From Luminiphilus sp. (GTDB lineage: Bacteria; Pseudomonadota; Gammaproteobacteria; Pseudomonadales; Halieaceae), in assembly GCA_029242325.1 (NCBI GenBank), contig JAQWUD010000014.1, positions 1-64,000 on the forward strand: 64,000 nucleotides of DNA, read 5' to 3'. Under the pieces are notes generated by a model. That model worked only from the letters and a program-made list of their open reading frames with translations, ran no database searches and was not told where the DNA came from. How positions within the stretch are numbered: the first letter of the stretch is position 1; every line of letters starts with the position of its first letter. The position numbers and the translations under genes are program-made. Below are positions 47,735-58,149 of this stretch, one piece after another.

Positions 47735-48115
47735 ATGAAATTGAAAAGCCTCGTATCTACGGCCAGCGCACTCATGCTGGTCTCGTCGTTTGCATCCGCC
47801 GGCAACCCTGTGCAGATGTGGAAATGCAACATTCACGGAGAGACCACCGAAGAGGGTGTAATGGCTCAGGCAGGTAAGTGGAAGGAAGCAGCCGGTGCCT
47901 TAGCCGGTGGCTCCGGTATGAACGTCTACACCATGTTCCCCGTCTCGGTAGGGGCTGACGGTGATGGCACTGACGTGTTGCTCGCTGTTTCTTGGGAGTC
48001 ATTTTCCAGCTTTGGCCAGTGGTGGGATGCCTATCCCTCCTCTGACGTAGCACAGATGGAACGCGAGACCATATCCTGCCATGGCAGTGCATTGTGGGAG
48101 AGCGAGGAAATCTGA
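47735..48115 (+). CDS. small secreted protein, Cys-framed domain
   Basis: A 126-residue protein with a clear signal peptide (LVSTASALMLVSSFASAG) and an AAGGAG ribosome site. The mature part is one domain of about 100 residues framed by two Cys (MWKCNIHGETTEE.. and ..ETISCHGSALW), with the pattern sWesFssFgqWWDayps near the middle. It resembles dimeric alpha/beta-barrel (ABM-like) proteins in pattern. The two halves of the larger protein at 59737-60525 share this layout. Function unknown. A strong terminator follows. Confidence 0.65.
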   Translation: MKLKSLVSTASALMLVSSFASAGNPVQMWKCNIHGETTEEGVMAQAGKWKEAAGALAGGSGMNVYTMFPVSVGADGDGTDVLLAVSWESFSSFGQWWDAYPSSDVAQMERETISCHGSALWESEEI

Positions 48116-48230: not shown

Positions 48231-49280
48231 ATGTCGCGAGTATGGAGTTGTAACGAGTGGGACCCTCTGGAAGAGGTGATTGTTGGTCTTCCACAGGGTG
48301 CGCGCTTCCCCTTTGCCGATTTGAGTACCCGTTTGGCCGAGTATCCCGATCGCGAGCTCGCAGATATACCCCAAGGGGCCTTTCCGAAAAAAATCATCGA
48401 AGAGACCGAGGAAGATCTACAGCGATTCATTGAGGCCATGGAGGTGCGCGGCATCAATGTTTGTAGACCTGCTCCCTGGCCCCACGAGCAGCGCATCAAA
48501 ACGGTGCAATGGGAAACCGAGGGCTATTACAACTATTGCCCCAGAGACGTAATGCTGGTGGTGGGCGACACGATTATCGAAACACCCAATGTGATCCGGG
48601 GTCGTTCTTTGGAGACCGGTTCCTATCGCGCGTTACTCATGGAGTACTACCACAGTGGTGCTAATTGGTTCAGCGCCCCAAAGCCGCTGCTGGACGACAC
48701 CCTCTTCGATTTTGACCCGGCAACCCCCACGCCAAGAGACCTTGAACCTGCTTTCGATGCAGCCAATGTCCTCCGTTTTGGTCGTGACCTGCTTTATCTG
48801 GTGAGCGCGACCGGAAACGAACTGGGCGGGCACTGGTTACAGCGCGTATTGGGAGACCGCTTTCGGGTACATTTTCTGAAGGGGGTATATTTCGGCAGTC
48901 ATATTGATTCAACTCTGGTGGCGTTGCGACCCGGTCTGATTCTGGCCAATCCCGGGCGTTTATCAATGGATACTATCCCAGCGTTTCTGAGAGACTGGGA
49001 AATTATCTTTAGTCCACCGATGGAAAATCAGGCCCGCCACAGTGAAGACTATCTTAAGAAAGCGATCGGCAGCGAATGGATCGATATGAATTTGTTTAGT
49101 CTCGGTCCGAACACCGTGGTTGTCGATAGCGATCAAAGCGCACTGATCACGCTACTGGAGTCAAAAGGCATGGAGGTCATTCCACTCAAACTCAGGCATT
49201 CGCGCATGATGGGGGGCGGCTTTCACTGTGTAACGCTGGATGCGCGACGCCGAGGCACAATGGAATCCTACTTTTCCTAA
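48231..49280 (+). CDS. arginine:X amidinotransferase (AGAT family)
   Basis: A 349-residue enzyme of the glycine amidinotransferase family, moving the amidino group of arginine to an amine. Its catalytic triad aligns with human GATM: D176 (PAFDAANVLRFGRD), H224 (GSHIDSTLVALRPG) and C333 (GGGFHCVTLDARRRGT). The residue before the active-site His is Ser where human AGAT has Met, a position lining the acceptor pocket, so the acceptor may differ from glycine. Relatives include SxtG, CyrA and AmtA in toxin pathways. No signal peptide. It lies 34 bases before the NRPS gene and almost certainly shares its transcript. A TTG directly before the ATG is an alternative start. Confidence 0.88.
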   Translation: MSRVWSCNEWDPLEEVIVGLPQGARFPFADLSTRLAEYPDRELADIPQGAFPKKIIEETEEDLQRFIEAMEVRGINVCRPAPWPHEQRIKTVQWETEGYYNYCPRDVMLVVGDTIIETPNVIRGRSLETGSYRALLMEYYHSGANWFSAPKPLLDDTLFDFDPATPTPRDLEPAFDAANVLRFGRDLLYLVSATGNELGGHWLQRVLGDRFRVHFLKGVYFGSHIDSTLVALRPGLILANPGRLSMDTIPAFLRDWEIIFSPPMENQARHSEDYLKKAIGSEWIDMNLFSLGPNTVVVDSDQSALITLLESKGMEVIPLKLRHSRMMGGGFHCVTLDARRRGTMESYFS

Positions 49281-49290
49281 ACGACGCGCA

Positions 49291-49317
49291 ATGAACGACA
49301 CAAGTCTGCCCCGATGA
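49291..49317 (+). other. eight-codon mini-ORF overlapping the NRPS start
   Basis: An ATG at 49291 opens eight codons (reads MNDTSLPR) and stops at the TGA of the NRPS start (ATGA, 49314-49317). No good ribosome site precedes the NRPS ATG, so translation could be delivered by re-initiation from this mini-ORF. This is seen in sequence but not proven; it may be chance. Confidence 0.25.
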
Positions 49318-52300
49318 CGCTATTGTGGATATTAGTTATCCCGGCTGCGGTCACCGCGGCCTGGTTACGGTACCGATCGGTGGTTGCTCATGATGCACCC
49401 GCCACACCTGCTGGGCCGACTCTGACACAAACCGCACTGCGGACATGCTGGGGTGCTCATGAGCATCAACGCGGGGCGCAATGGCTCCATGAAATTTTTG
49501 AACGCTCTGCGGCAAAGTTTCCTGACCACATCGCGCTGTCGCTGCCTGAAACCGGCGAGTCGCTGACCTACGCCCAACTGAACCAGCAAGCCAATCAATT
49601 GGCAGGGGTAATCAGCGAATTCATTACAGCCCCCGATCAAGTGGTCGCTGTGTGCCTGCCTCAGAACACCAGCACCGCAGTGGCGCTTCATTTGGCGATT
49701 TTGAAGGCGGGTGCAGTGCAATGCTTTATTGACGTGGAATCGCCCGCCGCGATGCGGCAACAAGTGCTCCAAGACGCCCAGCCCGCGCTGTTAATTGCCG
49801 ACGACATGGCCGCCACTCCTGAGCTCCCGACACTCATCACGCGTGAACTCGGGTTCCGGGCTCAGTCAACATCAGCGCAGCTTGCCCGATCTCCATGGCT
49901 TGATGAACCCGGGAAAAGATTGGCCTCCCTGTTCTACACCAGCGGGACGACTGGATTACCTAAGGGCGTCGAGTGCCCTCATGCGGGCTATATCAATCTC
50001 GCTCAGTCCTACGCCACGTTTTATGACTTTATTGCGGGCACCGATGCCAGCTCACTGACTTCGTCTCTTGGATACGATGGGAGCATCTCCGAAATGTACA
50101 GCGCCTGGCTGGCCGGTTGCGAGGTGGTGGTGCTCAGCAAGACGGCGTTGCGCTCAGGCCCCGCGCTGCTGCCGATTCTTCGAGATGCGCATGTCACCGC
50201 GCTATTCTGCCCTCCTGTTCTGTTATCGACGCTATCGGCAAACCCCGAATACGACCTTCCCTACCCGATCTGCCGATACATCGTGGCTGCTGGAGAGGCT
50301 TTCCCGGCATCGCTGGTAGCGCCTTGGTCGAGAGCGCGAAGGCAAATAATCAATACCTATGGTCCTACCGAAGTCAGCACAGACACCAGCCGACAGTTAC
50401 TGCGGCCTGGCGAGCCCGTTACGATCGGCAGCCCGTTCCCCGGCGTCAGCTACACCATCGTGGACCCGGAGACCCTCGCGCCTCTGAACAACGGCCAACA
50501 GGGTGAGCTTGTCATTGGTGGTATTCAGCTGGCGCGTGGCTATCGCGACCTCCCTGAGATCACGGCGTCGCGCTTTATTGATCACCCGCACCTCGGTCGC
50601 TTGTACCGTTCCGGAGATCGATGTCACGTCGATCCTCACACGCATCGCATACACTTTCACGGCCGTATCGATTCGCAACTGAAGGTACGGGGTTATCGCG
50701 TTGAAGTGCAGCCCATTGAGTCGCTCTTACAGGATCACTTCCCCGCCATCGAGACCGCGGTACTGGATTGTCAGGACAACGAATTGATTGCCCTGCTGCG
50801 AGCGCCATCACTCTCGCTAGCAGCATCAACCAAACCTATTCAGCGCTTGCACCATGGCATGGTCGATGAGGCACAGAAGCTGATCTCGGAACGCTTCCCC
50901 CCTTACGCAGTGCCCAGCCGCTTTTTCCTCATCGAGCAATTCAATCTGGTTACCGCTTCCGGAAAGATCGATCGCCGCGCGCTACCCAAGGTCATTGAAG
51001 CAGCGGGTGACACCCGCGCTTATTCCGCCGCTTCAACGCCCGATGCTCAAGCGGATACTACGCCTCTGCCATCATGGATCCTCGATCTTTGCAGAGCGGA
51101 GCTTGGCACGGCGCTTGAATGGGACGATGACTTCATCGATTGGGGCGCTCACTCTATTGCCATCGCGCGATTATCCCAGCGCCTGCAGGAAGCAAGCCAT
51201 CCGGTCCCAGTCAGAGCACTTCTCACTGATGCACGCAGCGCTGCGAAGATCGTTCAGTTTTCACCGTCAAAATTGGATACCGGCACGCACGCGCTTCACG
51301 CCGCTGAGAAAACAGTGCCAACAAGGCATCAAACCGTAAACCACAGCCGACAATTTAGCTTCCTTGGTTTCACCCTGCGCCAGAGTGTGGCGATTGTACT
51401 GTTGAGAGTACCGCTCCTGATGATGGCGGCTCTAGGCTTGGCAATTATCGACCCTGAAGAGTTGTTGCTGGCGGGCAATGTGTTGGGTTTTCTGCTCGCA
51501 ACGCTGATCGGATATGGGATGTACATGTTCGTGCCTTTTACCAATCTGGGCTGGGTATTGCTCATGCGGTTGCTTCAGCGACAGCTCCCGGACGATCCCG
51601 ACATGCTCCCGGGAAGATATCAGAAGTTCTCAAGCCATCATCTGCAACTGTGGTGGCTGGAACGACAAACTGATTTCGTCCTTAAACCCCTCGTGAATGG
51701 GTTGCGCAGCCCGATGCTGTTTAATTGGGCGCTCAGGCGCCTCGGCGGCAATATCCACCCAAAGGCATTCATCGCGCAAAGCACCGAGTGGTATGGCCCA
51801 CTCTCTCTCGTCACTATTCAGTCAGAGGCGATTGTTCAGGCCGGGGCGCAAATCAGCACCGTTAGCTGGGAAGGAGAGCACTTTTTTCTGGATCACATCT
51901 CCATCGGGCGCCAGGCGAGAGTGGGCAGCAGAGCCATGGTCTCTGGGGGAGGTTCATTGGGGACCCAATCTTGGCTCACTCCGCTCTCCAGTCTCGACAC
52001 AGTATGTGAAGCGAGACAGCAAGTCAGTGGCGTCCCAGGATCCGCGGTGGGCGCGTATCGCCCCCCCCGCACCCCGACTGTCGTCAAAACATCGGCCCTT
52101 CAAGAACGGGCGCTCGAAATTCGCAACCTGCTGATGCAGTTATCACTCGAAATACTGCTGGTTGTCCTGCCCGGAGCTGCTATTGCCCTGCTGACCACCT
52201 GGTTTCTGGGCTTTGACGCGCTGAGCAAGGTGAGCTTGGATGCACAGCCCCTAACCACTGGCGACCTGTTGATCATGAGTGGGGCTGGCATGATGGGAAT

Positions 52301-53552
52301 ATGGCTAGGCGTGCTGTTTAGCTCTCTGATTCTATGCACCTTTCTGAGACTGACCCCGACACCACCCGGTTGGATCGCTACAAACAGTTTGCTAGGTATT
52401 TCCGCCCGCTACCGGCAAACCAAAATGAATCAGATTCAACAGATTTGGGGCTGGAGTCTGACGGGCCAGTATCTCCGCGCTTGGGCGGGCGTCAAATTTT
52501 CCAAAGTCGGCGCATCGGAATGTGACGCGCTTTTCAACCTGCTACCCGAGCAACTTCATGCCGATGCTAATGTCTTCATTGCTCAGGGCTGTTATTGCAA
52601 CGTGCTCGATGAACACGGCGCCTTTCTGTTGGTACAGCCTCTCCACATGCCAGCCGGATTTTTTGCCAGCAACAACGCCATGGTTGAGCCAGGCCCGCTG
52701 CCCGGCAATTTTCTACTAGGGGTATCGACCCCTGTCGGGCCTCATCTGTATCGGCAGCAATATACAAACCGCCACGACCCCCGACGCGTCATCAGTGGTA
52801 ACCCGCCTCTGGAAATGGGCAGCCTTGGACCACTGGCACCACCCGCACACCCTCCGCCATCACTCGGTATCTTTCTGGCCCGCTTTGCTCTCAACGATCT
52901 GGCCTCGGTGGGTGTCATCCCGGGCATCACCGTATTTCTGGCAACCTTACTCCTTGTCACTCTCAACATGGCGGGGTTCAGTAACATTGCTGCCGCGCTG
53001 CTCACGAGTGTTATCGTACCCATGTCTCTGCCGGTGCTCGCCCTTATGGTCAAGCTGCTGCTGGTCGGTAACCGATGGGGCGAACACAATACGGCACCCT
53101 TTTGGTCCGTTCGCCACTTCACTTACTTTCTGGCGCAAGACTGTTTTTTTCGGCTCATGGCGGGCTTTATGAGTGCTGTCTCCGGTACTGCTCTTGCCAA
53201 CCCCATCCTCCGACTTTTCGGCTGCCGTATTGGAGAACGCACCCTCATTGGTCTGCCGCTGCAAATGTCAGATTGGCACGCCGTGAACATTGGCTCCGAC
53301 TGCGTAATCAATGGCCAGATGCAATTGCATAGCTTTGAAGATCGAATCCTCACTGTTTCCCGTACCACCATCGGCAATAGGACCGTGATCAACCACGGCA
53401 CCATGCTTATGGGGGGAGCCGCCCTCGCCGAGGGAGCGACGGTCGATGCGCAGTCACTGGTGCTCAAATCCATGTGCCTCGAGGCAGGACGCCACGGCGG
53501 TAGCCCGACGCAGGAGATTCGCGGAGCACATAAAGCAGCCGGTCCGGCCTGA
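49314..53552 (+). CDS. membrane NRPS: A-PCP-TIGR02353 (Pls-like)
   Basis: A 1412-residue single-module synthetase. An N-terminal membrane helix (LLWILVIPAAVTAAWL) precedes an adenylation domain: A3 FYTSGTTGLPKG (about 207), A4-region GYDGSISE with D255 at the position that binds an alpha-amino group, A5 NTYGPTE (347), A8 YRSGDR (431) and A10 with K551. A carrier domain follows with Ser614 in WGAHSIAIARL (GAHS, not the usual GGHS). From about 680 to the end are at least five membrane helices between soluble segments, including hexapeptide-like beta-helix stretches (near 825-900 and 1290-1390). This C-terminal half fits TIGR02353 and the layout of epsilon-poly-lysine synthetase. There is no canonical condensation HHxxxDG or thioesterase. 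Confidence 0.88.
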   Translation: MTLLWILVIPAAVTAAWLRYRSVVAHDAPATPAGPTLTQTALRTCWGAHEHQRGAQWLHEIFERSAAKFPDHIALSLPETGESLTYAQLNQQANQLAGVISEFITAPDQVVAVCLPQNTSTAVALHLAILKAGAVQCFIDVESPAAMRQQVLQDAQPALLIADDMAATPELPTLITRELGFRAQSTSAQLARSPWLDEPGKRLASLFYTSGTTGLPKGVECPHAGYINLAQSYATFYDFIAGTDASSLTSSLGYDGSISEMYSAWLAGCEVVVLSKTALRSGPALLPILRDAHVTALFCPPVLLSTLSANPEYDLPYPICRYIVAAGEAFPASLVAPWSRARRQIINTYGPTEVSTDTSRQLLRPGEPVTIGSPFPGVSYTIVDPETLAPLNNGQQGELVIGGIQLARGYRDLPEITASRFIDHPHLGRLYRSGDRCHVDPHTHRIHFHGRIDSQLKVRGYRVEVQPIESLLQDHFPAIETAVLDCQDNELIALLRAPSLSLAASTKPIQRLHHGMVDEAQKLISERFPPYAVPSRFFLIEQFNLVTASGKIDRRALPKVIEAAGDTRAYSAASTPDAQADTTPLPSWILDLCRAELGTALEWDDDFIDWGAHSIAIARLSQRLQEASHPVPVRALLTDARSAAKIVQFSPSKLDTGTHALHAAEKTVPTRHQTVNHSRQFSFLGFTLRQSVAIVLLRVPLLMMAALGLAIIDPEELLLAGNVLGFLLATLIGYGMYMFVPFTNLGWVLLMRLLQRQLPDDPDMLPGRYQKFSSHHLQLWWLERQTDFVLKPLVNGLRSPMLFNWALRRLGGNIHPKAFIAQSTEWYGPLSLVTIQSEAIVQAGAQISTVSWEGEHFFLDHISIGRQARVGSRAMVSGGGSLGTQSWLTPLSSLDTVCEARQQVSGVPGSAVGAYRPPRTPTVVKTSALQERALEIRNLLMQLSLEILLVVLPGAAIALLTTWFLGFDALSKVSLDAQPLTTGDLLIMSGAGMMGIWLGVLFSSLILCTFLRLTPTPPGWIATNSLLGISARYRQTKMNQIQQIWGWSLTGQYLRAWAGVKFSKVGASECDALFNLLPEQLHADANVFIAQGCYCNVLDEHGAFLLVQPLHMPAGFFASNNAMVEPGPLPGNFLLGVSTPVGPHLYRQQYTNRHDPRRVISGNPPLEMGSLGPLAPPAHPPPSLGIFLARFALNDLASVGVIPGITVFLATLLLVTLNMAGFSNIAAALLTSVIVPMSLPVLALMVKLLLVGNRWGEHNTAPFWSVRHFTYFLAQDCFFRLMAGFMSAVSGTALANPILRLFGCRIGERTLIGLPLQMSDWHAVNIGSDCVINGQMQLHSFEDRILTVSRTTIGNRTVINHGTMLMGGAALAEGATVDAQSLVLKSMCLEAGRHGGSPTQEIRGAHKAAGPA

Positions 53553-53661
53553 GAGTGCGATAGCAAGCGGCGCAGTTTCGCGTCCTGCAAGGGGCATTCG
53601 CCACAAGCTGATACCGCCACACGAAGTCGCAAACTCCGCTGCGGCACACCTACTAGTCCCT

Positions 53662-54870
53662 CTAGGACCCCCTTCTGAGGGGCTCCCAACGCCAATAAGT
53701 GATTGACCGCCAGAGCCACTCCAAGGGGCCGAGGCGGAACCTTGCCAACCACAAGCTACAGCAAATTAGCAGAATGAGGTAAATGGCAGTGGCCAGACAA
53801 ACGACTGTCGCCGGGCCCCATGTGAATGCGCCGCCCAGCCCGTAACCATAAAACACCGTGGTGAAAATGAGGGTCTGAGCGATATAGCTGGTAAGGCTCA
53901 TTCTACCCACATTGGCAATCCGAGTCCTCAGGTTGGTCAACATGCCGCTCCCTACCCACCAGCGCACACTGAAAAACCAGGCTCCGGTAAGGCTGATCGT
54001 TGCCGCGAGATAGGTACAGTCGGCCAACAGAATCTGCTGCGGCAAAGCATCTGTCCGATCAAAGGGTCGGTAGCCGATCGTTACCGCCCAATATCGCTCT
54101 ATCGTCATCAAGGCCGCACCCAACAACCAAAGACCCAGCGACAACCGACCGGCTTGTGCTTGCGTCATGTGCTGAAGACGCTGCCCACTATCCCGCATGA
54201 TGACGAACCCCAGCAACAAGCAGGCCAGCACCATCAGGCCAGAATCTGGATACTGCCAATCGATCCAGAATTTCTCAGGAATAAATTCAGCGTGATACTC
54301 CATTACTTCGGCTAGGCCGCCTGTCGCGAGAGGGGAAGTGAGGCGCTCCTCGGCAAGCCACTCGGCAGCCTCTGCGGAGTCCTCGGGAGGCCAGTCATCC
54401 CCTCTGTCTCCACCCAAAAGGTGCCCCAAAGGAAAACTAAGGCACAACAGCACGCCAAGCACGAGCAGGGGCCCGGTTGGCAAACGGTGCAGTAACAACA
54501 AGAACACGCCGAGCTGGGCATAGAGCATCAAAATATCGCCTTCAAAAAGCAGGGCGTGCGCGCAACCGAATAGCATGAGGGCACCAAGGCGTCTTAGGGT
54601 GCTTAGGGTGCGATAGCTAGGAGATCGGGTTTGCAGATAGAAACCCATCCCGAATAGCAGACTGAAAACGGTCCAGAATTTGGTCTCAAAGAAAAGATGT
54701 TTCAATAACCAAGCCGCCTGGTCGGCGAGGCCGGTCCAAGCAGGGATATCGGCACCAAAACTGAATACGTTAACCAGTAAAATGCCATAGATTGCGATCC
54801 CCCGCAGCACATCCAGAAAATCGATACGGCGCGGATCAAGCGCTTCAGTGATCAAAAAAGGACTTCCCAC
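53662..54870 (-). CDS. DUF418 (YeiB-like) membrane protein
   Basis: A 402-residue multi-spanning protein of the DUF418 family. The N-terminal RRIDFLDVLRGIAIYGILLVN is the acyltransferase-3-like signature, and the C-terminal DUF418 domain contains GRMSLTSYIAQTLIFT and FRLGPLEWLWRSITYW. About ten hydrophobic segments. Suggested roles in the family are transport or acyl modification, none proven. It follows the broken SbnB-like gene with a 19-base overlap and converges on the NRPS gene (109 bases apart, no clear terminator). Confidence 0.85.
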   Translation of the reverse strand: MGSPFLITEALDPRRIDFLDVLRGIAIYGILLVNVFSFGADIPAWTGLADQAAWLLKHLFFETKFWTVFSLLFGMGFYLQTRSPSYRTLSTLRRLGALMLFGCAHALLFEGDILMLYAQLGVFLLLLHRLPTGPLLVLGVLLCLSFPLGHLLGGDRGDDWPPEDSAEAAEWLAEERLTSPLATGGLAEVMEYHAEFIPEKFWIDWQYPDSGLMVLACLLLGFVIMRDSGQRLQHMTQAQAGRLSLGLWLLGAALMTIERYWAVTIGYRPFDRTDALPQQILLADCTYLAATISLTGAWFFSVRWWVGSGMLTNLRTRIANVGRMSLTSYIAQTLIFTTVFYGYGLGGAFTWGPATVVCLATAIYLILLICCSLWLARFRLGPLEWLWRSITYWRWEPLRRGS

Positions 54871-55407
54871 TCCTCGTCAACCGCCTCCCGCCCGGGTAAG
54901 TGACCCGCTACCACGGATCCAAACTCACCGTGAATCGAGTCTCGCGTAACCAAACCCTCCCTGTGCATCCTCGCCAGCACTCGGTCTGAATGCACACTCT
55001 GATGCCAGTCATCTACGACGATCTTGTCCGCAGCAGCAACCAATTCGAACGTGGGATCCATCAGCGATACATTCATGAATAGCGAACCCCGTTTAAACTC
55101 TCGCTCTGTGACATACGGCTCTGACTCCGTCGTGGCAACAATACCAATGTTGGCGTCCACAAGCGCTTCCTGAAAGCTAGATGAGGCTTCCACCGCAATA
55201 TCCAGCATCGCCATATGCGCAGAGAGACCAATAATGCGGTCGTGGGCACTCGGGTCGTTTAAGAAAGCTGCTGGGCGGCACTGTGAATGCCTGCTGTTCG
55301 TGCAGCGGAAAAACCTGCTCCAACACCCTGCCTACCCAATCGACATCTGTAGCGCCAGCGCCGATTACCTCCCGCTGACTTAAAAACAAGGTAGGGCCTG
55401 GCTTCAT
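54852..55407 (-). pseudogene. sbnB: SbnB-like dehydrogenase remnant
   Basis: Read on the minus strand, the ATG at 55407 overlaps the sbnA stop (ATGA). About 50 codons match the N-terminus of SbnB (LFLSQREVIGAG.., ..PPSSFLK). Then the frame must shift at about 55255 to continue with NDPSAHDRIIGLSAHM, which matches SbnB DRIIAMPSHI. After this the sequence jumps to the SbnB C-terminal half (GIVATTESEPYV, KRGSLFMNVSLMD, ADKIVVDDW, GHLPGRE). Something over 100 residues, including the NAD-binding glycine loop, are missing. The end EEWEVLF is cut about 28 residues short where DUF418 begins. SbnB is the ornithine-cyclodeaminase-family enzyme releasing L-2,3-diaminopropionate, and this copy cannot be active. 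Confidence 0.8.
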
Positions 55408-56411
55408 GTACTGTTGCGAACAGCCAGCGCCGGCCCAGAAATACCCATGTTCTCAAGCCACTCAAGGTCAAACTGCGTTTGCGTATAGCGGCTGCCCTGG
55501 TCTGGAATCAGCGCTAACAGGCGGGCACCTAATCCATATCCCGCTGCGGCGTGCTCGCGCATCACGTGGCACGCGGCACCCCCAGCCCCCCCCATGACAA
55601 TACCCTTAGTACGCGCAATGTGGGTAGCCGTGGCGATAGCCTCTCCCGCCTTGACATAAACCACTTCGTCAACAAATCGACTAAACGCATCTCCTGCGTA
55701 GTTATTGGGCTGAATACTGGTCCCCATACCGTTGAGGAATAGCGGCTCAGGGCGTGCGCTTCTAGGCAAGGTGAGCGAAGCCACCTCATCGACCAGCCAG
55801 ATTTCAGTATCCGGGGAATGTTCGCGCAACCAGCGAGCAATCCCCATAGAGCTGACTCCGGTTCCCGCGATCATGATCATTGCGTCGAGTTGCGCGCCCA
55901 TCTGTTCGAGGATCTCCCGTCCGGTGGATGTGCGATGCGCTTCAATCGCCGCGGGCGAATCATACTGGTCAAGGTAAATTGCATTGGGCCGCTCGGCTCT
56001 CAGGGTTTCGAGGCGCTCGAGACGGGTTAAATGAAAGCCGCCTGTATGGTCGCGGGCCCCGACTTTCACCAGCTCGGCGCCCAGTAACTCCAGACTCCGC
56101 TCTGTCGATGGATTCAACTTGGGAACAAACAAGCAAATCAACCGGTAGCCCTTCACGGCACAGATCATCGCCATGCCGATGCCAAGGTTTCCAGAAGTAG
56201 AGATGATAATCTCAGACCCGGCCGACAGGTCATACTCTCGCTCAGCCCATTCGATCATCCCGAGGGCTGCCCGATCCTTCATACTCCCACCGGGATTGGT
56301 AAACTCATGCTTCGCCAATAGTGAGGGTCCTACCCCTGCTCCGAAGCGGTTGAGTTCCACGATGGGTGTATTGCCAATCGCCTCCAACACAGAGGCATTG
56401 AACCCTGCCAT
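55404..56411 (-). CDS. sbnA: SbnA-like 2,3-diaminopropionate biosynthesis protein
   Basis: A 335-residue fold-type II PLP enzyme of the cysteine-synthase superfamily. The PLP lysine is K45 in NPGGSMKDR, the substrate loop is STSGNLGIGMAM, the phosphate loop AGTGVSSMG, and the tail IPDQGSRYTQTQFDLEWLENM matches Staphylococcus SbnA (..DRGDRY..WLEKM). SbnA condenses O-phosphoserine with glutamate to ACEGA, which SbnB then splits to L-2,3-diaminopropionate. The adjacent SbnB remnant strengthens this call over plain cysteine synthase. I use the ATG at 56411, after GGGAAGG. An ATG at 56477 is also open. Confidence 0.85.
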   Translation of the reverse strand: MAGFNASVLEAIGNTPIVELNRFGAGVGPSLLAKHEFTNPGGSMKDRAALGMIEWAEREYDLSAGSEIIISTSGNLGIGMAMICAVKGYRLICLFVPKLNPSTERSLELLGAELVKVGARDHTGGFHLTRLERLETLRAERPNAIYLDQYDSPAAIEAHRTSTGREILEQMGAQLDAMIMIAGTGVSSMGIARWLREHSPDTEIWLVDEVASLTLPRSARPEPLFLNGMGTSIQPNNYAGDAFSRFVDEVVYVKAGEAIATATHIARTKGIVMGGAGGAACHVMREHAAAGYGLGARLLALIPDQGSRYTQTQFDLEWLENMGISGPALAVRNST

Positions 56412-56526
56412 ACCGGCTATGATACCTTCCCGCTCATACCAAGATGCTAGGCTGGCCAAGGCAGTCATTGAAAGCACAAAAGGTGACAGGCATTCCTATT
56501 TACAGAACATTGTTTCCCGATAACAT

Positions 56527-56545
56527 GCGCGTTTCGGAAACGCGC
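56527..56545. promoter_or_regulatory. perfect palindrome between sbnA and azlC
   Basis: GCGCGTTT / AAACGCGC (56527-56534 and 56538-56545) with a three-base CGG centre, in the divergent gap between sbnA (minus) and azlC (plus). It has no U tract on either strand. Its position suits a dimeric-repressor operator or a leader hairpin for azlC. No regulator gene is adjacent. Confidence 0.4.
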
Positions 56546-56587
56546 TGACAGCTTCCCGGCAATCAACTCAACAGGTTATTGAAGCCC

Positions 56588-57274
56588 ATGAATGCCTCCC
56601 TCGACTCACCTGCGCTGCGAGGTTCACTCGACGCACTACCCCTATTCATCCCAGCCATACCCTTTGCTTTTGTATTTGGCGTAGTCGTCGCCAATGCAGG
56701 GATCCCGCAATGGCTGGGTTGGTCTTCATCACCCATTATTTTCGGGGGTGCGATTCAGGTCACACTCTTAACGCTGATCGGCGAGGGGGCATCAGTGGCT
56801 GCAGCAGTCAGCGCGGCACTGATCGTGGGGGCTCGGCATATGCTTTACTCCGTTACCCTGGCACCCCGTTTTCAGCATCAGCCCAGCTGGTTTAGATGGG
56901 TGGGCTCTTATGTCCTGATTGACCAGGTGTTCGTTCTAAGTCAGATCAAACCCATCGATGATCCCCATGACTTCAGACGCTACTTTCTCTCGGCGGGATT
57001 CACTTTTTGGTCACTGTGGATGATATGCACCGCGCTCGGGGTGGTTTTGGGCCCCGCTATCCCACCCGAGTGGAGGGTAGAGTTCGCTGCGCCCGTGCTC
57101 TTTGTCAGCCTGATGATGGCGTCGAGTGATCGTCGCGATAAATTGGGGGCCGCAGCGCTGGCTATGGGGCTAGCTTATCTACTCGCTGCAATGCCCAATC
57201 GATCTGGCATCCTCGTTGCGGTAGTCGTTAGCGTGATGACAATGCTATTCGCGCAAAAAGTGCGGCCTGCGTGA
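56588..57274 (+). CDS. azlC: AzlC-like amino-acid exporter, large subunit
   Basis: A 228-residue membrane protein of the AzlC/YgaZ family. It starts with GSLDALPLFIPAIPFAFVFGV and has the conserved GGAIQVTLLTLIGEGAS and GARHMLYSVTLAP segments, with about five to six helices. With AzlD it forms an exporter for branched-chain amino acids or related compounds. The ATG at 56588 or a TTG at 56579 may start it. Its stop overlaps the azlD start. Beside a diaminopropionate/NRPS locus, export of a non-standard amino acid is a reasonable but unproven idea. Confidence 0.85.
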   Translation: MNASLDSPALRGSLDALPLFIPAIPFAFVFGVVVANAGIPQWLGWSSSPIIFGGAIQVTLLTLIGEGASVAAAVSAALIVGARHMLYSVTLAPRFQHQPSWFRWVGSYVLIDQVFVLSQIKPIDDPHDFRRYFLSAGFTFWSLWMICTALGVVLGPAIPPEWRVEFAAPVLFVSLMMASSDRRDKLGAAALAMGLAYLLAAMPNRSGILVAVVVSVMTMLFAQKVRPA

Positions 57275-57576
57275 TTACCCTAGCAATCGTTCTGACTGGC
57301 CTCGGCTCCTACATTATGCGCGCATTCTTCATTTTTGCGCTCGCGCGCTATACGTTCCCGCCAACGTTGCTGCGGGCGCTCGAGTTCGTCGCACCCACTG
57401 TCATGGCCGCACTCGTGATTTCCATGATGACCACACCCGAGGGAGAATTGGTCGCTGGCCCACCCGAGGCGTTAGGCCTCATCTGCGCTGCGGTCACCGC
57501 CAAGCTGACAGGTAATCATATTCTGTCACTGGCAGCTGGAATGATCAGCTTCTGGCTACTCGGCTGGGTTCTCTAA
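57271..57576 (+). CDS. azlD: AzlD-like amino-acid exporter, small subunit
   Basis: A 101-residue membrane protein with three to four helices matching AzlD/YgaH: LGSYIMRAFFIFALARYTFP, LEFVAPTVMAALVISMM and the C-terminal GNHILSLAAGMISFWLLGW. It starts at GTG overlapping the azlC stop (GTGA), the usual arrangement of the pair. Confidence 0.85.
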   Translation: MITLAIVLTGLGSYIMRAFFIFALARYTFPPTLLRALEFVAPTVMAALVISMMTTPEGELVAGPPEALGLICAAVTAKLTGNHILSLAAGMISFWLLGWVL

Positions 57577-57705: not shown

Positions 57706-58149
57706 ATGTTTAGACTATCTTTGTTAATGGCCACATTGTTATTGGTCAGTTCGTTCACTCGCGCTGAAATCTGGGAGGACTATTCCTTAAGCGAAGAGGT
57801 CATTGAGCACACTGTGATTGCAGTACAGGGCAATTATCTTGATGAATATCTGGTAAGACTGGAGCGCACCTGGGTACGCAGCATGGAGGTGCAAAAGGAA
57901 CTTGGCTACGTTACCGACTACACAATTCTCGTCTCGACGGCAGCGGATTCACCCAATGTGTGGCTCAACGTGGAGTACCCGAATATGGCGGCCTACCAGC
58001 CTAATGAGGAAAAGTGGAATAAAGTGAATGCCATCCTCGCCGAACGTTACGCTGACGATGAAGAGGAGCTGGATGCGATCGCCAAGGGCTATGAGGAAAT
58101 CCGGACGATGATGGATCATCAGATTGTGCACAAAGTGACCTACAAGTAA
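57706..58149 (+). CDS. small secreted hypothetical protein
   Basis: A 147-residue protein with a signal peptide (LSLLMATLLLVSSFTRAE). The mature part is acidic, with one domain rich in Tyr, Glu and Trp (YLDEYLVRLERTWVRSMEVQKELGY, then SPNVWLNVEYPNMAAY), reminiscent of dimeric alpha/beta-barrel proteins. It has no Cys in the mature part, unlike the proteins at 47735 and 59737, so membership of the same family is doubtful. A GC-rich hairpin at 58176-58200 follows. Confidence 0.6.
   Translation: MFRLSLLMATLLLVSSFTRAEIWEDYSLSEEVIEHTVIAVQGNYLDEYLVRLERTWVRSMEVQKELGYVTDYTILVSTAADSPNVWLNVEYPNMAAYQPNEEKWNKVNAILAERYADDEEELDAIAKGYEEIRTMMDHQIVHKVTYK

Follow-up and report, generated by a model that had tools for sequence, protein, structure and literature searches.

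A widespread amidinotransferase and membrane synthetase gene set with a partly decayed copy in Luminiphilus sp. and a predicted guanidine-bearing product

The known natural homopolymers of amino acids are few, and none with guanidine is named in the available excerpts of PMC4668381 and PMC10522769. In the poly-diaminopropionate pathway of Streptomyces albulus PD-1, as outlined in the excerpt of PMC4668381, a pair of enzymes for 2,3-diaminopropionate (Dap), homologues of cysteine synthase and ornithine cyclodeaminase, works with a Pls-type nonribosomal peptide synthetase (NRPS), and the gene set described here has the same combination in its fuller copies. Cyanophycin is a natural guanidine-bearing polymer, an Asp-Arg copolymer made by cyanophycin synthetase and, in the excerpt of PMC10522769, without a membrane synthetase that joins an adenylation (A) domain to a peptidyl carrier protein (PCP). 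The locus under study lies in a contig of the 2.76 Mb draft genome of Luminiphilus sp. (GCA_029242325.1, contig JAQWUD010000014.1), of which the whole analysed stretch of 64,000 nucleotides is called the window. Here, the gene for an amidinotransferase of the AGAT/StrB1 family (48231..49280, plus strand, 349 aa) is followed on the same strand, 33 bases past its stop, by that of a membrane NRPS (49314..53552, 1412 aa). A DUF418 gene, an sbnB remnant and an sbnA homologue lie beyond them on the minus strand, at the positions given in a preliminary description of this DNA, which were confirmed.

The window locus is best read as a conserved biosynthetic island of which this copy has partly decayed. 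The gene set is real and widely spread: its gene content, gene order, conservation, domain architecture and invariant pocket are shown by the data, and its chemistry, with each step and the product, is a prediction. Judged from the sequences, the most likely role of the set is to make, at the cell membrane, an unusual amino-acid product that carries guanidine. This gene combination was not found described in the open-access literature searched, where no paper found brought Dap, amidinotransferase, nonribosomal peptide synthetase and guanidino together. Among the matches listed there, none joined an amidinotransferase with SbnA/SbnB, with cationic polymers or with diaminopropionate. The one paper that combined most of the polymer terms does not mention guanidino, and in another listing PMC12283262 alone mentions an amidinotransferase.

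Distribution of the gene set

The AGAT and the C-terminus of the NRPS were searched for in 140 genomes of the same family. The AGAT matched in 31 of them at E<=0.001, or 30 without a single match of 36% identity, and the C-terminus of the NRPS in 38, or 30 without eight matches that were short and weak; 29 genomes are common to the two sets of 30. Both exceptions are contig ends: the AGAT contig of genome G086 (twin record L073) stops inside the start of the NRPS, and contig L154 of G080 starts inside the NRPS. Given this overlap, the pairing of the two genes is not due to chance.

A wider scan, with one genome per species and peptide patterns taken from the AGAT alignment, gave 74 loci (L numbers below), the window's own record not being matched. 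An AGAT with at least 55% identity to the yardstick sequences was present in 66 of these, six had only a 36-37% relative and two had none by that test. Counts are of loci and not of independent events, as L096 and L105 come from one metagenome-assembled genome (MAG), L108 and L115 from another, and many loci are the contigs L034-L053 a second time. Downstream sequence of 290 nt or more was available for 62 loci; 56 of these have the NRPS, 52 of them with no more than 260 nt between it and the end of the AGAT. It is missing from L094, L114, L119, L121, L124 and L128; L121 ends after an S41 peptidase gene like those found ahead of the NRPS in L107 and L133.

The order sbnA-sbnB-AGAT-NRPS occurs in members of the Acidobacteria, Rhizobiales-type Alphaproteobacteria, delta-proteobacteria (NaphS2), Verrucomicrobia and Gammaproteobacteria, and a phosphopantetheinyl transferase (PPTase) gene often comes next. 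Overall, the set spans Gamma-, Alpha- and delta-proteobacteria, Acidobacteria, Verrucomicrobia and Planctomycetes, mostly as MAGs, so that single phylum labels may be wrong. Named strains that carry it with both sbnA and sbnB are HTCC2080, HTCC2148, Zhengella mangrovi X9-2-2 and NaphS2. In a test set beforehand, the AGAT, the NRPS and sbnA/sbnB were thus found together in distant bacteria, often in one direction, and this argues strongly that they belong to one ancestral pathway, as the preliminary description had proposed.

Two kinds of peptidase gene were also seen near the set. An S41 peptidase gene accompanies the AGAT in L086, L087, L090, L094, L096, L101, L107, L109, L121 and L133, and the two proteins scanned have a Tricorn C1 domain; in L150, next to a TIGR02353 synthetase whose pocket reads D-F-x-x-E, there is a 34% relative. 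The association hints at polymer processing or self-protection. A gene for a DUF4344 putative metallopeptidase adjoins or is near the set in L090, L096, L110 and L111.

The amidinotransferase and the membrane synthetase

Assignment of the window AGAT rests on PDB matches, an alignment, a tree and substitution patterns. Its best match among solved structures is the inosamine-phosphate amidinotransferase StrB1 (365 bits, PDB search). The Cys, His and Asp positions of the AGAT/StrB1 family are present within a full-length family match, and Asp176, His224 and Cys333 are invariant across 12 aligned relatives. We take these residues to be the catalytic triad known from the AGAT literature, which fits the alignment to human AGAT. 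The ratio of nonsynonymous to synonymous differences (pN/pS), for which only ratios of raw differences were used as synonymous sites are near saturation, was 0.11-0.17 in six comparisons with relatives, and 0.115 between two relatives with intact sbnAB. In a tree of 67 rows, built without fragments shorter than 900 nt and without a single stop-containing row, StrB1 and the Hyalangium sequence fall outside and all NRPS-linked AGATs lie on one side of a branch with 98/98 support, in an analysis with unsettled bootstrap and flagged long branches. The same side holds five loci in which the NRPS was not seen (L094, L114, L119, L121 and L124) and also L074, which reaches a contig end. Halieaceae appear at two separate places in the tree, which transfer or an old duplication could give.

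Related amidinotransferases also occur in other settings. In L124 (Streptomyces) and L179 (plasmid p3 of Robbsia andropogonis), they lie with genes for SIS-domain, SDR, ATP-grasp or PGM1-type ligase and aldehyde dehydrogenase proteins. Plasmid records matching the AGAT numbered 45; the best was Robbsia andropogonis (62%), in a PGM1-type ligase cluster without an NRPS, and the other 44 were below 60%. The Patescibacteria loci L132, L134, L135 and L137-L139 hold AGAT relatives of 36-37% identity, near which gene clusters c18, c27 or c28 recur.

The window NRPS has a hydrophobic N-terminus, an AMP-binding domain, a PP-binding domain (Ser614) and a C-terminus that is collinear with positions 69-694 of TIGR02353, the model of the cationic homo-polyamino-acid synthetases. 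Hydropathy places three transmembrane (TM) pairs in this C-terminus, as in that class, accompanied by segments of left-handed beta-helix type; the class layout of A-PCP, three TM pairs and three tandem soluble segments is found in NRPSs of the window type. For comparison, class members were collected with TIGR02353, which was found in 5 of 185 class-level genomes at E<=1e-60 with Corynebacterium glutamicum as positive control; L149, L150 and L152 were used, the other two being cut or lacking a long frame. The NRPS C-terminus matched these three with an hhalign probability of 100% (E=5e-40, 615 columns). PDB entries matched by its profile are LpxA and a hexapeptide transferase, which agrees with the model of PosA, with its three beta-helices (PMC10522769, excerpt). 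A hydrophobic N-terminal stretch was seen by hydropathy in four of five members of the NRPS family tested versus none of the three class members. L084 and L126 have the gene broken into two frames, and pN/pS was 0.25-0.31 in six comparisons (0.261 between two relatives with intact sbnAB). By these comparisons the synthetase is a distant relative of the poly-lysine, poly-ornithine and poly-diaminopropionate synthetases, and the Pls-type architecture assigned to it earlier is supported by the TM-pair layout and the hhalign match.

The A-domain pocket was read at sequence anchors that we take, by the GrsA convention, to be the specificity positions. The code was DGSFVATTDK (31 copies; also the code of the window copy) or DGSFIATTDK (15 copies) in 46 of 46 copies with all anchors, its last Lys being supplied by the script (in 41 full-length proteins, K551 of the A10 motif does not vary). 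Another 12 NRPS pieces were too short or lacked an anchor, so that no code was read from them. Such invariance is what one substrate common to all copies would give. Class codes differ at position 2, where the poly-Dap enzyme has Phe, ornithine goes with Met and lysine with Ala, and the class shares a Glu that is conserved in all its enzymes (both from the excerpt of PMC10522769); the codes of L149, L150 and L152 start with Asp-Leu, Asp-Phe and Asp-Ala, each with Glu at the third position, as in PosA. A comparison with known pockets, suggested in the preliminary description, gave no match to those reported in the class for diaminopropionate, lysine or ornithine, and four forms of the code string had no match in a substrate lookup in the open-access literature; 'DGS' is absent from the main text of PMC12283262. 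Since the pocket is unlike the reported ones, the activated monomer is one that we infer. With Gly at position 2 and Asp at position 9, the pocket may be roomier than one for bare Dap while retaining an acid for a cationic side chain, and on this ground would favour a larger cationic monomer such as guanidinylated Dap.

Diaminopropionate genes, acyltransferases and flanks

The sbnA homologue of the window (55404..56477, minus strand) is an open frame of 357 aa with 79% identity to the SbnA of L036 over 345 aa and a TIGR03945 score of 239.6 bits (cut-off 349.95). Of five relatives scanned against the same cut-off, L103 and L100 were over it, L117 was just under, and L050 and L044 scored 276 and 280; SbnB was over the TIGR03944 cut-off in all five. 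The pN of the window sbnA against two relatives was 0.12-0.14, and 0.083 between those two, both of which have intact sbnAB. Downstream, on the same strand, the two frames of the sbnB remnant (54873..55238 and 55240..55407; TIGR03944 82 bits over 108 aa) abut at 55238-55240 and between them align by tblastn with residues 19-74 and 194-315 of the intact SbnB of L036. The gap between these two stretches of the intact protein means that about 119 internal codons were lost, and the gene is a remnant, as the preliminary description had called it.

Elsewhere, sbnA and sbnB are paired in 29 of the 66 AGAT loci, often directly before the AGAT and in several phyla. SbnB matched in 58 of the 140 same-family genomes at E<=0.001, and in 8 of 14 control genomes too, so that little weight attaches to weak matches. 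With a threshold of 260 bits, it was found in 19 of the 140 (14 over the curated cut-off), comprising 18 of the 31 with AGAT or NRPS versus 1 of the 109 without. This lone genome, G061, has azlC, sbnA, sbnB and a DUF418 piece on a contig that ends soon after. In one Planctomycete MAG, sbnA, sbnB and DUF418 are together on a separate contig.

The DUF418 protein of the window (53662..54870, minus strand; PF04235 96 bits) has a D-x-x-R-G motif (FLDVLRG). DUF418 occurs in 29 related loci and a TraX-like domain (PF05857) is fused to the NRPS in L086, L103, L107 and L133 and separate in seven other loci; the two were never together in one locus, and one or the other is present in 28 of 30 well-covered loci, a well-covered locus being one that has the NRPS and no less than 7.5 kb of sequence downstream. 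DUF418 and TraX are both placed in the TmAT superfamily, where TraX is a borderline case (PMC12423673, excerpt), and the proteins examined reached the Pfam gathering score and have a D-x-x-R/K motif in the first TM helix. On the strength of this motif and superfamily placement, the exporter role proposed earlier for DUF418 gives way to that of a TmAT membrane acyltransferase. Because TraX and DUF418 replace each other and TraX is fused to the NRPS, an acyl-transfer step is likely to be part of the pathway. The pN/pS of the window DUF418 was 0.33-0.43 in five comparisons (0.31 in the relative pair), looser than for the AGAT and NRPS.

PPTase matches were found in 20 of the 30 well-covered loci, with PF01648 in all three homologues scanned. 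In the draft genome of the window, neither a PPTase at E<=0.001 nor AcpS was found, the genome being incomplete or the search insensitive there. A small exported protein that was absent from the preliminary description (47735..48115, plus strand, 126 aa, with a signal-peptide-like N-terminus and two invariant Cys) precedes the AGAT in the window and in many relatives, and is present in 23 of the 30 well-covered loci. An alignment of 20 sequences has invariant C31, W49, G58, G59, C115 and W121; no Pfam match was found for the window copy and three homologues, and no PDB match at E<=0.1. By its recurrence, it belongs to the gene set. In L118 (6993-7874, a Verrucomicrobiota MAG), it is tandemly duplicated inside one frame.

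The azlC and azlD genes (56579..57576, plus strand), once considered as an exporter, lie beside the island only in the window's clade, and AzlC homologues are found in 7 of 10 island-free genomes of the genus, with 51-58% identity, so that they may be other copies. AzlCD is probably a mere neighbour outside the pathway. RNase R, a flank in one clade, and an FAD oxidoreductase that flanks the locus in the window's clade and has a match at E<=1e-80 in one of 10 island-free relatives, were likewise rejected as members. A second small protein with a signal-peptide-like start (57706-58149), for which no Pfam match was found, adjoins azlCD in the window, L038 and L040.

Proposed pathway and comparison with known systems

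We propose that SbnA and SbnB, in the fuller copies, would make L-2,3-diaminopropionate, to whose amine the StrB1-type amidinotransferase would transfer the amidino group of L-arginine. The product would most simply be 2-amino-3-guanidinopropionate, the alternative being the alpha-amidino isomer. The A domain would activate this guanidino amino acid and load it onto the PCP, primed by a PPTase that is encoded alongside in many loci and not in the window. The membrane C-terminus, built like poly-lysine and poly-ornithine synthetases, would then form a short cationic chain or transfer the residue to an acceptor, after which a TmAT-type acyltransferase (DUF418 or TraX-like) may cap the product or attach it at the membrane, and the small exported protein may assist. 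For the series as a whole, with Dap amidinated, loaded, joined by the membrane synthetase and handled by the acyltransferase, we would put the chances at a little below even. More tentatively, at least five phyla, by taxon labels as deposited, may share one cassette whose product, poly-guanidinyl-diaminopropionate, would be the first guanidino homopolymer known from nature; a membrane synthetase with a pocket code of its own would make it, and the fused or adjacent TmAT acyltransferase would cap it or anchor it at the surface.

Several observations weigh against this pathway. The TIGR02353 match of the NRPS, at 125 bits, is far under the curated cut-off of 423, and the Glu at code position 3 (Glu221 of PosA) is replaced by Ser in all 46 copies. 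The solved structure closest to the AGAT is an inosamine-phosphate enzyme, and close relatives without an NRPS lie in ATP-grasp or PGM1-type ligase clusters (L124, L179), so the AGAT acceptor is not readable from homology. Two well-covered loci, L087 and L106, have neither TraX nor DUF418 by the search used. Both sbnA and sbnB are missing from 10 of the 30 well-covered loci (among them L099, with only 1 kb upstream), and among 17 NRPS-bearing genomes without linked sbnB, one (that of L108) has an over-cut-off SbnB elsewhere, in a search that also took in five loci without an NRPS and covered mostly MAGs with no completeness given. As the pocket code is unaltered, where readable, in loci without sbnAB, these would need another source of Dap, uptake, or an acceptor other than Dap. 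This last point would also suit a loose association of SbnA/SbnB, with the AGAT and NRPS using an amino acid not derived from Dap, as would the 16 genomes of 17 that lack an over-cut-off SbnB; we consider it improbable, given the frequent sbnA/sbnB pair before the AGAT in several phyla and the strong concentration of high-scoring SbnB in AGAT- or NRPS-bearing genomes.

It is also conceivable, though rather unlikely, that no polymer is made and that the synthetase charges one guanidino or diamino acid for transfer to a lipid, a glycan or a small molecule that serves as acceptor in the envelope, as in D-alanylation, with the TmAT completing the transfer. The A-PCP and membrane part, nearly always with a membrane acyltransferase and fused to it in four loci, would suit such a role, the hexapeptide-fold relatives of the C-terminus are acyltransferases, and a guanidinylated side chain is presumably no good second nucleophile for an isopeptide chain; against it, the C-terminus retains the three-segment, three-TM-pair layout of known polymer synthetases. 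Somewhat less probable is a poly-Dap chain that is built first and then amidinated, or an AGAT acting on the alpha-amine while the beta-amine forms the backbone. A poly-Dap synthetase is known (PMC4668381, excerpt), and alpha-amidination is possible since some AGAT relatives without an NRPS sit beside an ATP-grasp ligase (L124) or an annotated PGM1-related ligase (L179). A dying window locus that makes nothing, which is compatible with any reading of the intact copies, is doubtful: the broken sbnB speaks for it, and the PPTase search, which missed AcpS likewise, allows no conclusion. The window AGAT and NRPS look selected despite the loss of sbnB, since their frames are open and their pN/pS values are near those of the pair with intact sbnAB; furthermore, L038 and L041-L043 of the same genus have no sbnAB at the locus, yet their AGAT and NRPS frames remain long.

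Chains rich in guanidine are strong binders of membranes, nucleic acids and phosphate, which is why a guanidino product, if real, would be important to microbial competition, to the biology of the envelope and to delivery chemistry. Poly-guanidinyl-diaminopropionate would be a bacterial counterpart of synthetic oligo-arginine. The invariance of the pocket across phyla makes for a sharp prediction of one common substrate, and the exchange of TraX-like and DUF418 proteins would give two little-understood acyltransferase families a concrete job.

Compared with known systems, each part of the set has a relative in a different context. The AGAT aligns with StrB1 over its full length, including the Cys, His and Asp positions and an Arg that we take to be the carboxylate-binding residue; unlike StrB1, which falls outside its clade, it is linked to Dap and NRPS genes, with no cyclitol genes among the neighbours scanned. 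SbnB of the relatives is over the curated cut-off of the staphyloferrin B enzyme (5/5) and SbnA in 2/5, that of the scanned Halieaceae being under it, whereas no staphyloferrin synthetase was found among the neighbours scanned. The DUF418 and TraX-like proteins share the Pfam matches and the D-x-x-R or D-x-x-K motif of the TmAT superfamily (DUF418/YeiB, TraX) and differ in being paired with a membrane NRPS, including by fusion. The Streptomyces albulus PD-1 enzyme has Phe at its second code position (PMC10522769, excerpt), and the word amidinotransferase does not occur in PMC4668381. Finally, the cationic homo-polyamino-acid synthetases (Pls, PosA, poly-Dap; TIGR02353) share the A-PCP unit and a long C-terminus in which segments of beta-helix type accompany three TM pairs, whereas the family described here is without the class Glu, mostly has a hydrophobic N-terminus, and is linked to an amidinotransferase and a TmAT protein that is sometimes fused to it.

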